IMG/VR virus record: IMGVR_UViG_3300042870_001314
Span: 1 to 21,510 of that record
DNA from: a virus
Strand: one strand, 5' to 3'
DNA length: 21,510 bases
Part shown: one piece after another, positions 2,756 to 16,504 of the stretch
How positions within the stretch are numbered: the first letter of the stretch is position 1
Layout: every line of letters starts with the position of its first letter
Notes under the pieces: generated by a model
Told to the model about the DNA's origin: nothing
The model's input: the letters and a program-made list of their open reading frames with translations, nothing else
Databases searched by the model: none
Position numbers and translations under genes: made by a program

Positions 2756-2989
2756 ATGTATCACGGGAGAGATTGGGACTATGAAATTCAGTCAAAGGTG
2801 TTTGACGAGATGACCCGTGATCTGAACCGCCCGACTGCGACTCCTCGCCGCAAGAAACCTGCACCCGCTGGGGCCGTTGTCGCCGTGACGTTCTTTACTG
2901 TTGCTGCTACTTGGTTGTTTGTTATCGCTCTGTTGATGCCGTGTGTCTGGTTGTTGTGGACTGCCGCTAAGTGGATGTTTAGTTTCTGA
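2756..2989 (+). CDS. Small membrane protein of unknown function
   Basis: 77 residues. The N-terminal half is charged and ends in a basic Pro-rich stretch (PRRKKPAPAG, about 30-40). The C-terminal half, about 41-77, is continuously hydrophobic (VVAVTFFTVAATWLFVIALL, then MPCVWLLWTAAKWMF), enough for one or two membrane segments with a Pro near the middle. The basic stretch before the first segment predicts a cytoplasmic N-terminus. AAGGA lies about eight bases before the ATG. The stop overlaps the next ATG as TGATG. A holin or a membrane anchor for replication are both possible; neither is supported by a specific motif. Confidence 0.65.
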   Translation: MYHGRDWDYEIQSKVFDEMTRDLNRPTATPRRKKPAPAGAVVAVTFFTVAATWLFVIALLMPCVWLLWTAAKWMFSF

Positions 2990-3525
2990 TGCCGTGGGAT
3001 GTGGTGGCTGAGGATGAGGGTTGCCCGGTGTCTACCCCGTGGGGTGTTCGTTTAGAGACAGGTCGGTTGTTGTCGTGTCATGGGTCGAAGCGTGAAGCGT
3101 TAGCTCAGGTGGCTGCGTTGCACGCTAATGAAAACCTTCAGGGCCGTTTGTCTGGCGCTGCGCTATCGGCGCTCGCTGCTTATGTTTCGCTTGCCGATCT
3201 GGACTTGAAGCCTACGGACGCGATGGTTGCTGAAGCGGAGCGTGGCTTGGCTTGGCGGGATGAGTTCAAGCGTGGTGGCGGGGCGGTCGGTGTTGCGCGC
3301 GCTCGTGATATTGCGAATCGGGTGCGGCTGTCGCCGGAGACGGTTCAGCGGATGGCTTCGTATTTCGCGCGCCACGAGATTGATAAAGAGGGGCAGGGGT
3401 TCAACCGTGGCGAGGATGGGTATCCGTCGGCGGGGCGTATCGCTTGGGCGTTGTGGGGTGGCGATCCCGGTAAGAGCTGGGCTGACGCTCGGGTTGTTCA
3501 AATTAGAAATATAAAAGAAACCTGA
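2989..3525 (+). CDS. Conserved phage protein with C-terminal GYPSAGRIAWALWGGD motif
   Basis: 178 residues, function not assigned. The N-terminal 50 residues (PWGVRLETGRLLSCHGSKREALAQ, split here only by reading, then AALHAN) look like the small domain found at the start of some phage head and DNA-associated proteins. The C-terminal half carries RGLAWRDEFKRGGGAVGVAR, then MASYFARHEIDK and YPSAGRIAWALWGGDPGKSW, a block I recall as recurring in phage proteins, sometimes fused to head-maturation or other structural proteins. It starts at the TGATG overlap with the membrane-protein gene and is the last gene of the left rightward operon, followed by a promoter and hairpins. No catalytic motif is evident. 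Confidence 0.75.
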   Translation: MPWDVVAEDEGCPVSTPWGVRLETGRLLSCHGSKREALAQVAALHANENLQGRLSGAALSALAAYVSLADLDLKPTDAMVAEAERGLAWRDEFKRGGGAVGVARARDIANRVRLSPETVQRMASYFARHEIDKEGQGFNRGEDGYPSAGRIAWALWGGDPGKSWADARVVQIRNIKET

Positions 3526-3572
3526 GAAAGATTCCAAATAGACTTGATAGCTGTAGGACCACCAACTACAGT
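3526..3572 (+). promoter_or_regulatory. Promoter A with dyad operator, driving candidate ncRNA
   Basis: Box GAAAGATTCC at 3526-3535, -35 TTGATA at 3544-3549, a 17-base spacer and -10 TACAGT at 3567-3572. The dyad CTGTAG (3551-3556)-N9-CTACAG (3566-3571) spans the spacer and most of the -10. The gap between the AAAGATT box and the -35 is 10 bases. Predicted start of transcription is about 3579. The same layout recurs at four other sites. Confidence 0.6.
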
Positions 3573-3578
3573 AACAGA

Positions 3579-3654
3579 CACATAGGAACGCAAGCCCGGT
3601 TTGGTCGGGGGTTGAGCATCAAGAAGCTCCCCCTTACGCACCGGGCTTCTTCCA
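3579..3654 (+). ncRNA. Candidate structured phage ncRNA downstream of promoter A
   Basis: No ATG or GTG occurs between the predicted start and the hairpins. The RNA would fold into an outer nine-pair stem, AAGCCCGGT (3592-3600) with ACCGGGCTT (3640-3648), enclosing GGGGG and GAGC paired with GCTCCCCC, followed by CTTCTTCC. The hairpin could end the transcript or be its functional part; transcription might continue to the compound hairpin at 3662-3717. AGGAACG at 3584-3590 also occurs early in the other candidate ncRNA at 12675-12837. Not a tRNA: no T-arm sequence and too short between acceptor-like strands. Confidence 0.4.
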
Positions 3655-3661
3655 TTTCACG

Positions 3662-3717
3662 GGGCCACTGGTAAAGGACCAGAGGCGTACCTCTGGCCCT
3701 TTGTAGTTCAGTGGCCC
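3662..3717. terminator. Long compound hairpin between convergent transcription units
   Basis: Outer stem GGGCCACTG (3662-3670) with CAGTGGCCC (3709-3717). Inner stem AAAGG-A-CCAGAGG (3673-3685) with CCTCTGG-C-CCTTT (3690-3702), closed by a CGTA loop. It sits between the rightward operon and the leftward genes and looks the same on either strand, so a bidirectional terminator is the simplest reading, although T-runs are short. It overlaps the last three codons of the leftward 39-residue ORF. Confidence 0.5.
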
Positions 3718-3827
3718 TTCAACCTCTTAGCCCGTAGCGCCGCCCGCCGCTGCTCACGGTTTGGCTTCAAACGCTCTGGGCTATTCCTGCGCAACAGTTC
3801 CGTGGCCGCTTTATAAACATCGGCCAT
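3708..3827 (-). CDS. Small basic peptide, 39 residues, unknown function
   Basis: Encodes MADVYKAATELLRRNSPERL followed by KPNREQRRAALRAKRLKGH. It is predicted helical with a strongly basic C-terminal half (REQRRAALRAKRLK). GGGGAG lies seven bases before the ATG. It follows the ribbon-helix-helix gene by about 46 bases on the same strand, suggesting co-transcription, and its stop codon sits in the arm of the compound hairpin. The region is otherwise without any gene, and the composition is like the neighbours. A nucleic-acid-binding accessory peptide is possible. Too short for family assignment. Confidence 0.5.
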   Translation of the reverse strand: MADVYKAATELLRRNSPERLKPNREQRRAALRAKRLKGH

Positions 3828-3873
3828 CGCGTCGCTCCCCGGACCCTCAACCTCTACTTGAGGTTCAGGCTCG

Positions 3874-4290
3874 CTACGAGTCAAGAGAAGCGAGGGCGGC
3901 GGCGATCCGGTCGGCCACGGTTGGCTCGGCTGCTGCTGGCTCGGTTGCTGGCACTACTTCGTCAAGCGCCTCAAAGTCATCCGTGGCAAGAGCGATGTCA
4001 CGGTCTGCCTGCTCGGAGGAAACTACTGGAGCGGTTGGGGCCACTGGTGCGGCGGGCGTGTCAGCAACCTTCAGCGGTTTAGGTTCTACCACCGGGGCTT
4101 CTTCTAGCCGCATTACAAGGGATCGAAGTATCCCTGATCGCGATTCCCCTTTGGCCGCTGCCCAACCGTCAAGCCGGTCGATCTGCGAAGGTGAAAGGCT
4201 GAAGCTGTACGTCTTCAGTTTCTCATCGGTCTTGAGCGGTCGCCCGGTTTTACGCTGGGCGATTGGTTCTGTTTCTGTGTTTGGTTCCAT
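3874..4290 (-). CDS. Ribbon-helix-helix (CopG/Arc-like) DNA-binding protein
   Basis: 138 residues from ATG 4290. Residues about 14-62 (KTGRPLKTDEKLKTYSFSLS, then IDRLDGWAAAKGESRSGILRSLV) fit a ribbon-helix-helix: a basic arm, a beta strand alternating polar residues (KTYSFSLS), then two helices with the SRSGILRSLV pattern. The rest (about 65-138) is a low-complexity Pro/Val/Ala/Glu tail ending in a helix (TVADRIAAALASLDS), perhaps for oligomer or partner contacts. The start is preferred over upstream ATGs because TATGGT is exactly six bases before it, the leaderless geometry seen elsewhere here. A GGAAATCTTC box lies about 48 bases upstream. It is a candidate regulator of the CTGTAG-N9-CTACAG sites, or a partition-like protein; the ligand is unknown. 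Confidence 0.75.
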   Translation of the reverse strand: MEPNTETEPIAQRKTGRPLKTDEKLKTYSFSLSPSQIDRLDGWAAAKGESRSGILRSLVMRLEEAPVVEPKPLKVADTPAAPVAPTAPVVSSEQADRDIALATDDFEALDEVVPATEPAAAEPTVADRIAAALASLDS

Positions 4291-8704: not shown

Positions 8705-8872
8705 ATGGACACCACCACAACAACCACCCGCCGCACCGCTAACAGCGGGCGGACCATCGCCGCACAGACCTCTGGCGCTTGCGGCTACTGCGGTTGCATC
8801 CGGGTCATCCCCGCACACCGCGCCGATACGCTGGCACCCCGCGCGGTGGTGACCTGCGGCCACGGTTCCTGA
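8705..8872 (+). CDS. Small Cys-containing peptide, 55 residues, possible zinc ribbon
   Basis: Encodes MDTTTTTTRRTANSGRTIAA, then ACGYCGC and near the end VTCGHGS. Four Cys (26, 29, 31, 51) plus His53 give a C-x2-C...C-x-H arrangement consistent with a small metal-binding knuckle. The N-terminus is Thr-rich and then basic. It has its own promoter with the dyad operator and an exact six-base -10 to ATG gap. There is no ribosome-binding site, as expected for leaderless translation. Ends about 100 bases before the portal gene. Function unknown; the dedicated regulated promoter argues that it is real. Confidence 0.6.
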   Translation: MDTTTTTTRRTANSGRTIAAQTSGACGYCGCIRVIPAHRADTLAPRAVVTCGHGS

Positions 8873-16411: not shown

Positions 16412-16504
16412 TTAGCCCCGCTCGTCGTCGCGCTCGTCGTCTTCCCATTCTTGGTCCCAGTCTTCGTCCTCTTGTTCCCAGTCGATTTCGTTGTCGTTTG
16501 GCAT
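16412..16504 (-). CDS. Highly acidic micropeptide, 30 residues, leaderless
   Basis: Sequence MPNDNEIDWEQEDEDWDQEW followed by EDDERDDERG: 17 of 30 residues are Asp/Glu and three are Trp. The reading frame is supported by promoter F: TATAGT, exactly six bases (AAGTAC), ATG. No ribosome-binding site is needed for a leaderless message. GGGG-CTAA-CCCC overlaps the stop. Such acid/aromatic peptides resemble DNA-mimic proteins in composition, but at 30 residues this is only a comparison. It faces the Arg-rich micropeptide tail to tail. Confidence 0.5.
   Translation of the reverse strand: MPNDNEIDWEQEDEDWDQEWEDDERDDERG

Follow-up and report, generated by a model that had tools for sequence, protein, structure and literature searches.

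The window, a stretch of 21,510 bases that is a whole IMG/VR virus record, encodes a helicase and a portal protein that are nearest to those of Gordonia phages (31-32% identity) and of Microbacterium/Arthrobacter phages (about 30%). Because these proteins are closest to actinobacteriophage proteins, an actinobacterial host is likely. No tRNA or tmRNA was found in the window. The locus considered here is flanked by the replication operon and, convergent to it, a regulator gene: a plus-strand gene of 178 aa (2989-3525) stops at 3525, and the minus-strand genes end at 3708. On the minus strand, a 58-aa frame (3708-3884) overlaps a CopG-like gene (3874-4290), and the end of this frame reads similarly, by eye, in the DNA of two relatives (L211 and L217). 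The order of the 178-aa gene and a Mu F-like gene (L217:10067-10843) differs between lineages directly before the RNA gene, or one of the two is missing.

The first-pass annotation had described a full promoter with an operator that fires into this locus. The promoter form is present on the plus strand at 3544-3572, with a -35 element TTGATA (3544-3549), a 17-nt spacer, and a -10 element TACAGT (3567-3572) that were found by consensus scan and are kept in relatives. Across the spacer and -10 element, a pattern search located the palindrome CTGTAG-N9-CTACAG (3551-3571), a candidate operator. A regular-expression match to the upstream box of a recurring promoter class, AAAAGAAACCTGAGA, lies at 3513-3527 on the plus strand and overlaps the 3' end of the upstream gene. 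Scanning the window for the bare promoter consensus was unremarkable alone, with 7 sites against 7.5 expected. The composite of -35, palindrome, and -10 occurs at five sites (3544, 6072, and 8671 on the plus strand; 12871 and 16538 on the minus strand) versus none in 200 order-1 Markov randomisations. This class is made up of a AAAAGAAATCT-like box, (A/G)CTTG, and CTGTAG-N9-CTACAGT, and it is present at other small genes in relatives too. An AAAGAAA(T/C) box stands upstream at four of the five class promoters in the window, with a shorter form at the fifth and close variants in relatives. The exact palindrome pattern has four sites in the window versus none for a reversed control pattern; it was found in 11 of 15 records, and the control matched once in each of two records.

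At two class promoters (8671 on the plus strand and 16538 on the minus strand), an ATG follows the -10 element at a distance of exactly 6 nt, as it likewise does in L208, L209, L212, L217, and L219. This spacing fits leaderless mRNAs whose transcription would start about 7 nt after the -10 element. It thereby supports the class as real promoters and, applied to the RNA promoter, predicts a start at 3579. The class promoters are a candidate phage regulon, and their make-up suggests that a phage regulator reading the palindrome sets the timing of expression, a role for which the CopG-like protein encoded next door is a candidate. At the RNA place, relatives carry the forms TTGACC/TTGATA-N17-TACAGT, TTGACA-N17-TACATT, and TTGGCA-N17-TACAGT. 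The promoter stands as first described. Regulation by the palindrome is only inferred, and the upstream palindrome arm is lost in lineage L213/L214. Among the small genes under class promoters, we observed a leaderless gene of 55 aa with the motif CGYCGC (8705-8872, plus strand) and a leaderless, very acidic 30-aa peptide beginning MPNDNEIDWEQEDEDW (16412-16504, minus strand). In the large relatives G009 and G010, class promoters likewise precede small genes, and these begin MSDN.

Downstream of the promoter we predict a small RNA of about 79 nt (3579-3657, plus strand), its start taken from the leaderless class genes and its end from a U-rich tail. The predicted fold is a nested hairpin (3585-3653, plus strand) in which the outer stem, GGAA.G.AAGCCCGGU paired with ACCGGGCUU.C.UUCC, encloses the inner stem, GGGGG..GAGC paired with GCUCCCCC. 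The apical loop AUCAAGAA (3618-3625, plus strand) is invariant in an alignment of three lineages. A nested stem-loop had been proposed from the letters alone, and it was borne out: positions 3579-3654 fold at -36.7 kcal/mol (z -4.45), whereas 200 dinucleotide shuffles gave -21.96 +/- 3.31 kcal/mol and not one folded as well. The arms at 3592-3611 and 3629-3648 form the longest of the four inverted repeats in the window that have arms of at least 16 nt within 120 nt. The G+C-rich stem of an intrinsic terminator is present, and the U-rich tail CUUCCAUUU (3649-3657, plus strand) makes an imperfect one. A simple terminator scan of the window did not list the 3585-3653 hairpin, the inner part of which exceeds the scan's loop limit. 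Just 3' of the RNA lies a second strong nested hairpin (3661-3718; -39.4 kcal/mol, z -5.90), which is missing in L211, L212, L217, and L218 and may be a terminator that was inserted at the end of the minus-strand operon.

The 5' segment of the RNA had also been described as shared with a second candidate RNA in the window. It is present there with a 1-nt gap (AGGAACGCAAGC at 3584-3595; minus-strand AGGAACGGCAAGC at 12829-12817), and the gapped pattern, which was picked after being seen, gave 2 matches versus 0.03 expected. The second candidate (12871-12670, minus strand) consists of a class promoter followed by about 165 nt that end in a strong terminator hairpin (12704-12672). Its whole fold has a z of -2.98, with 1 of 200 shuffles as good. 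As none of 14 relatives contained this candidate at a meaningful score, the shared segment stays a single resemblance within one genome.

Thirteen loci were found through the helicase, five of which (L208, L209, L215, L216, and L219) end before the RNA place. A promoter and a hairpin occur at this place in all eight that reach it (L207, L210, L211, L212, L213, L214, L217, and L218), a count that excludes L221, found via the RNA core sequence itself. The helicase divides these genomes into the lineages window, L211/L212, L217/L218, L207/L210, and L213/L214, in a comparison made without L218. The RNA of the window, which we call type 1, is shared by L211/L212 and L217/L218, and the RNA region of L218 is identical to that of L217. 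The large relatives G009 and G010 stop within the helicase, and the other contig ends fetched do not continue it. Two Actinomycetes MAG contigs with a distant helicase, judged from the frame list of L244 alone, were of no use for this neighbourhood.

Type 1 RNA is nearly frozen. Across the block 3576-3657, the window has 80 identical positions, no substitutions, and one 2-nt gap relative to both L211 and L217, which in turn match each other at 80 of 80 positions. The 49 promoter bases just upstream have 37 identical and 12 different between the window and L211, 39 and 10 between the window and L217, and 43 and 6 between L211 and L217. With gaps left out, Fisher tests of substitutions in the RNA versus the promoter gave p = 3.5e-6 (window-L211), 3.3e-5 (window-L217), and 0.0025 (L211-L217). 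The helicase of the window shares 79-80% nucleotide identity with those of L211 and L217, and its fourfold sites are identical at 86 of 200 (L211) and 95 of 204 (L217), i.e., 43-47%. Even the best 82-base stretch of helicase has only 75 (L211) or 73 (L217) identical bases. "Invariant" here rests on few cases, namely three type 1 lineages with two distinct RNA sequences, apart from a tail base in the window and the 2-nt indel.

The RNA is therefore conserved beyond its flanks, with one exception: an 82-base stretch of the upstream gene (2989-3525) is identical at all 82 bases in L217. It belongs to a near-identical tract (3049-3228, plus strand; 177 of 180 bases) inside otherwise diverged genes, which on its sequence is a recent recombination. 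No such tract was found between the upstream gene and L211, where the best 82-base stretch has 74 identical bases. In the window, the promoter separates this tract from the RNA, and the promoter has diverged in both L211 and L217. The frozen block begins 3 nt ahead of the predicted start of transcription and stops at the hairpin tail. This sharp edge at the predicted start points to selection on the RNA, which explains it better than exchange of a whole piece of DNA would, although recombination next door lends some probability to an exchange of the block. The cassette follows the Mu F-like gene in L217/L218 and another gene in the window, L211, and L212, so it has been kept with a different upstream neighbour.

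Lineages L207/L210 and L213/L214 hold an unrelated RNA (type 2) of roughly 95-135 nt at the same place, behind the same type of promoter (TTGACA-N17-TACATT and TTGGCA-N17-TACAGT). The hairpin at the end of type 2 RNA has as many as 15 pairs and the loop UUGCUCUCUCUC, which stays the same between lineages that agree at about 40% of their helicase fourfold sites. Complements of the loop in their own genomes are short, scattered matches outside the hairpin, none of which was seen to be shared. Covariation of the stems, one route by which the fold could have been supported in relatives, contributed little for either type. None of the 26 type 1 base pairs has compensating changes, the RNA being invariant. 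In type 2, both partners have changed in two pairs, and 97.8% of cells are paired; with only three sequences, however, 104 of 500 shuffles scored as high. A covariance model (R2) matched 6 of 16 records, all of them type 1; an earlier model (R1) was set aside because it spanned too much flank.

We weighed four other explanations for the locus. It is unlikely, though less so than the three that follow, that the hairpin is an ordinary intrinsic terminator where two convergent operons meet. The rep-helicase operon would end there on the left side and perhaps the CopG operon on the right, and the promoter-like sequence would be incidental or yield only a short waste RNA. The setting suits a terminator, with the upstream gene stopping at 3525, the minus-strand genes ending at 3708, and no other hairpin with a T-run seen from 3525 to the RNA. 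Hairpins of the form AAGCCCGGT...ACCGGGCTT are also common (at least 120 IMG/VR stretches), and type 2 RNA closes with T6. Yet termination requires paired arms and a U-tail; it does not call for a loop, internal loops, and a 5' tail that stay unchanged. The promoter, for its part, is of the class that also stands before other small genes, and it is kept in all eight loci found through the helicase that extend this far.

Regulation in cis of the convergent CopG-like/58-aa operon, through transcription interference or a read-through antisense RNA, is improbable. The 58-aa frame does end at 3708, about 50 nt past the end of the RNA, and the 77-nt OOP RNA of lambda offers a precedent as an antisense RNA to cII (PMC12197685). 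The predicted RNA itself overlaps no minus-strand gene, however, and in the window the extra hairpin at 3661-3718 intervenes. Moreover, the convergent neighbour is by eye another gene in L207/L210 and L213/L214, where promoter and hairpin are retained.

Still less probable is a DNA site, such as a replication origin, a packaging site, or a protein-binding site, whose inverted-repeat form is incidental. Strong primary conservation beside replication genes would be in keeping with one, but the frozen block runs from 3 nt before the predicted start to the hairpin tail, two lineages have unrelated sequence there, and no tandem iterons or skew switch were seen at the locus. Finally, a very short protein gene overlooked by gene finders is hardly credible: some frames 3' of the indel are open across the block, and the earlier statement that the stretch contains no start codon is right for ATG and GTG in 3579-3657 but overlooks two TTG codons (3601 and 3612), yet TTG 3612 would sit at the foot of the apical stem, and the 2-nt indel puts every frame of either strand out of register between lineages that have no start codon in common in any frame of the block, which argues that it is not protein-coding.

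Searches elsewhere placed the RNA within this group of phages. Rfam families had no match to the window at the gathering score and only weak ones below it. A 22-base core of the RNA was absent from 84,980 bacterial and archaeal genomes, named phages gave chance-level matches only, and a 19-base core was found in IMG/VR in this group alone, plus one chance match. The latter, L222, was rejected as a relative, as it carries the 19-base core by chance within an unrelated gene. In the rest of the window the RNA has no complement longer than 11 nt, a length within the 9 to 13 nt given by shuffles. Several baits were unproductive. The gene at 2989-3525 drew 80 loci, nearly all of them representing a shared domain in other settings, with only L002 being useful. 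The outer-stem pattern was far too common, and an earlier promoter pattern gave six loci, four of which (L203-L206) lie outside the group. A looser promoter pattern returned, among the matches listed, at least 115 sites in new loci that are mostly chance, at least 21 of them with a TTG a short way upstream; L379 alone was a clear class promoter among those listed.

The OOP RNA adjoins the lambda replication gene O. It is 77 nt long and expressed from pO, and the sar RNA of P22 is 68/69 nt, so both resemble the predicted RNA in size and in having their own promoter (PMC12197685). Unlike the predicted RNA, which has no gene overlap or complementarity above chance, OOP and sar are antisense to phage mRNAs (PMC12197685). 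The closest comparators, together with the WC1 transcripts described below, are the abundant non-coding RNAs of the Cluster A mycobacteriophages L5, D29, and StarStuff, which include the Pleft RNA at the right genome end and the D29 63-64 intergenic RNA (PMC5712189). They share with our locus an actinobacterial phage (probable here), a non-coding transcript outside genes (predicted here), a phage promoter, and repeated operator-like sites (PMC5712189). The Pleft RNA was measured, comes from a source of about 500 bp, appears to be processed, and has no evident stem-loop terminator; the Pleft region is toxic to the host M. smegmatis (PMC5712189). The RNA of the window differs in being predicted, about 79 nt long, and equipped with its own hairpin. 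In Rhodococcus phage WC1, RNA-seq revealed transcribed intergenic nc_1, nc_2, and nc_3 among the most abundant transcripts after infection (PMC10986025). These are likewise intergenic non-coding RNAs of an actinophage, ours being predicted from sequence; the accessible part of that report describes no fold or conservation, and our comparison with WC1 was made only through the phage collection search (PMC10986025). Kampy was also considered as a comparator (PMC4626039). By analogy, the predicted RNA may work like the Cluster A and WC1 RNAs, although no sequence kinship to known phage RNAs was found, there being no above-chance match to any phage record. The literature searched supplied comparators and no description that we recognised as this RNA, and we do not claim its absence from print.

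We conclude that a functional non-coding RNA expressed from its own promoter is well supported at the sequence level. The conclusion follows from conservation that runs from the start site to the tail and exceeds that of the promoter and coding flanks, together with a promoter class that recurs at other small genes. The original argument, that a regulated promoter driving no protein gene implies a functional RNA, gains from both observations, but not from covariation. With a putative promoter of its own, no conserved reading frame, and conservation above its flanks, the locus can be classed as a putative phage small-RNA gene. Probably it is a dedicated small-RNA gene of a tailed phage, one that may act in trans on a host component. 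Such a gene is ordinary in kind; what sets this one apart is the degree to which its sequence is frozen and the presence of two unrelated RNAs behind a single promoter at a single place.

Under this small-RNA reading, the class promoter would drive transcription from 3579 on a schedule set by the phage through the palindrome-reading regulator. The RNA of about 79 nt would have no protein product, and its own hairpin would end transcription. It would then act in trans, with the invariant 5' tail (CACAUAGGAACG) and apical loop contacting an invariant partner. We tentatively favour a host RNA or protein as the target over a phage transcript, since complementarity in the window does not exceed chance and the RNA has remained frozen while nearby phage genes drifted. 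A more speculative and rather doubtful extension is that this position acts as an RNA-effector slot, in which a regulated promoter would serve unrelated RNAs in different lineages, each frozen within its type by gripping an invariant host partner, e.g., in switching off a host process or defence.

Generality is limited in that the RNA type is not universal, with two lineages holding the unrelated RNA. Abundant actinophage non-coding RNAs are known from RNA-seq without a known function (PMC5712189, PMC10986025). A self-contained short RNA gene whose start is predicted, whose sequence is frozen, and whose promoter class is shared with other small genes would be a handier object for finding the partner of such an RNA. 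From the promoter class itself one can also read off, in these uncultured phages, which small genes are probably regulated together.
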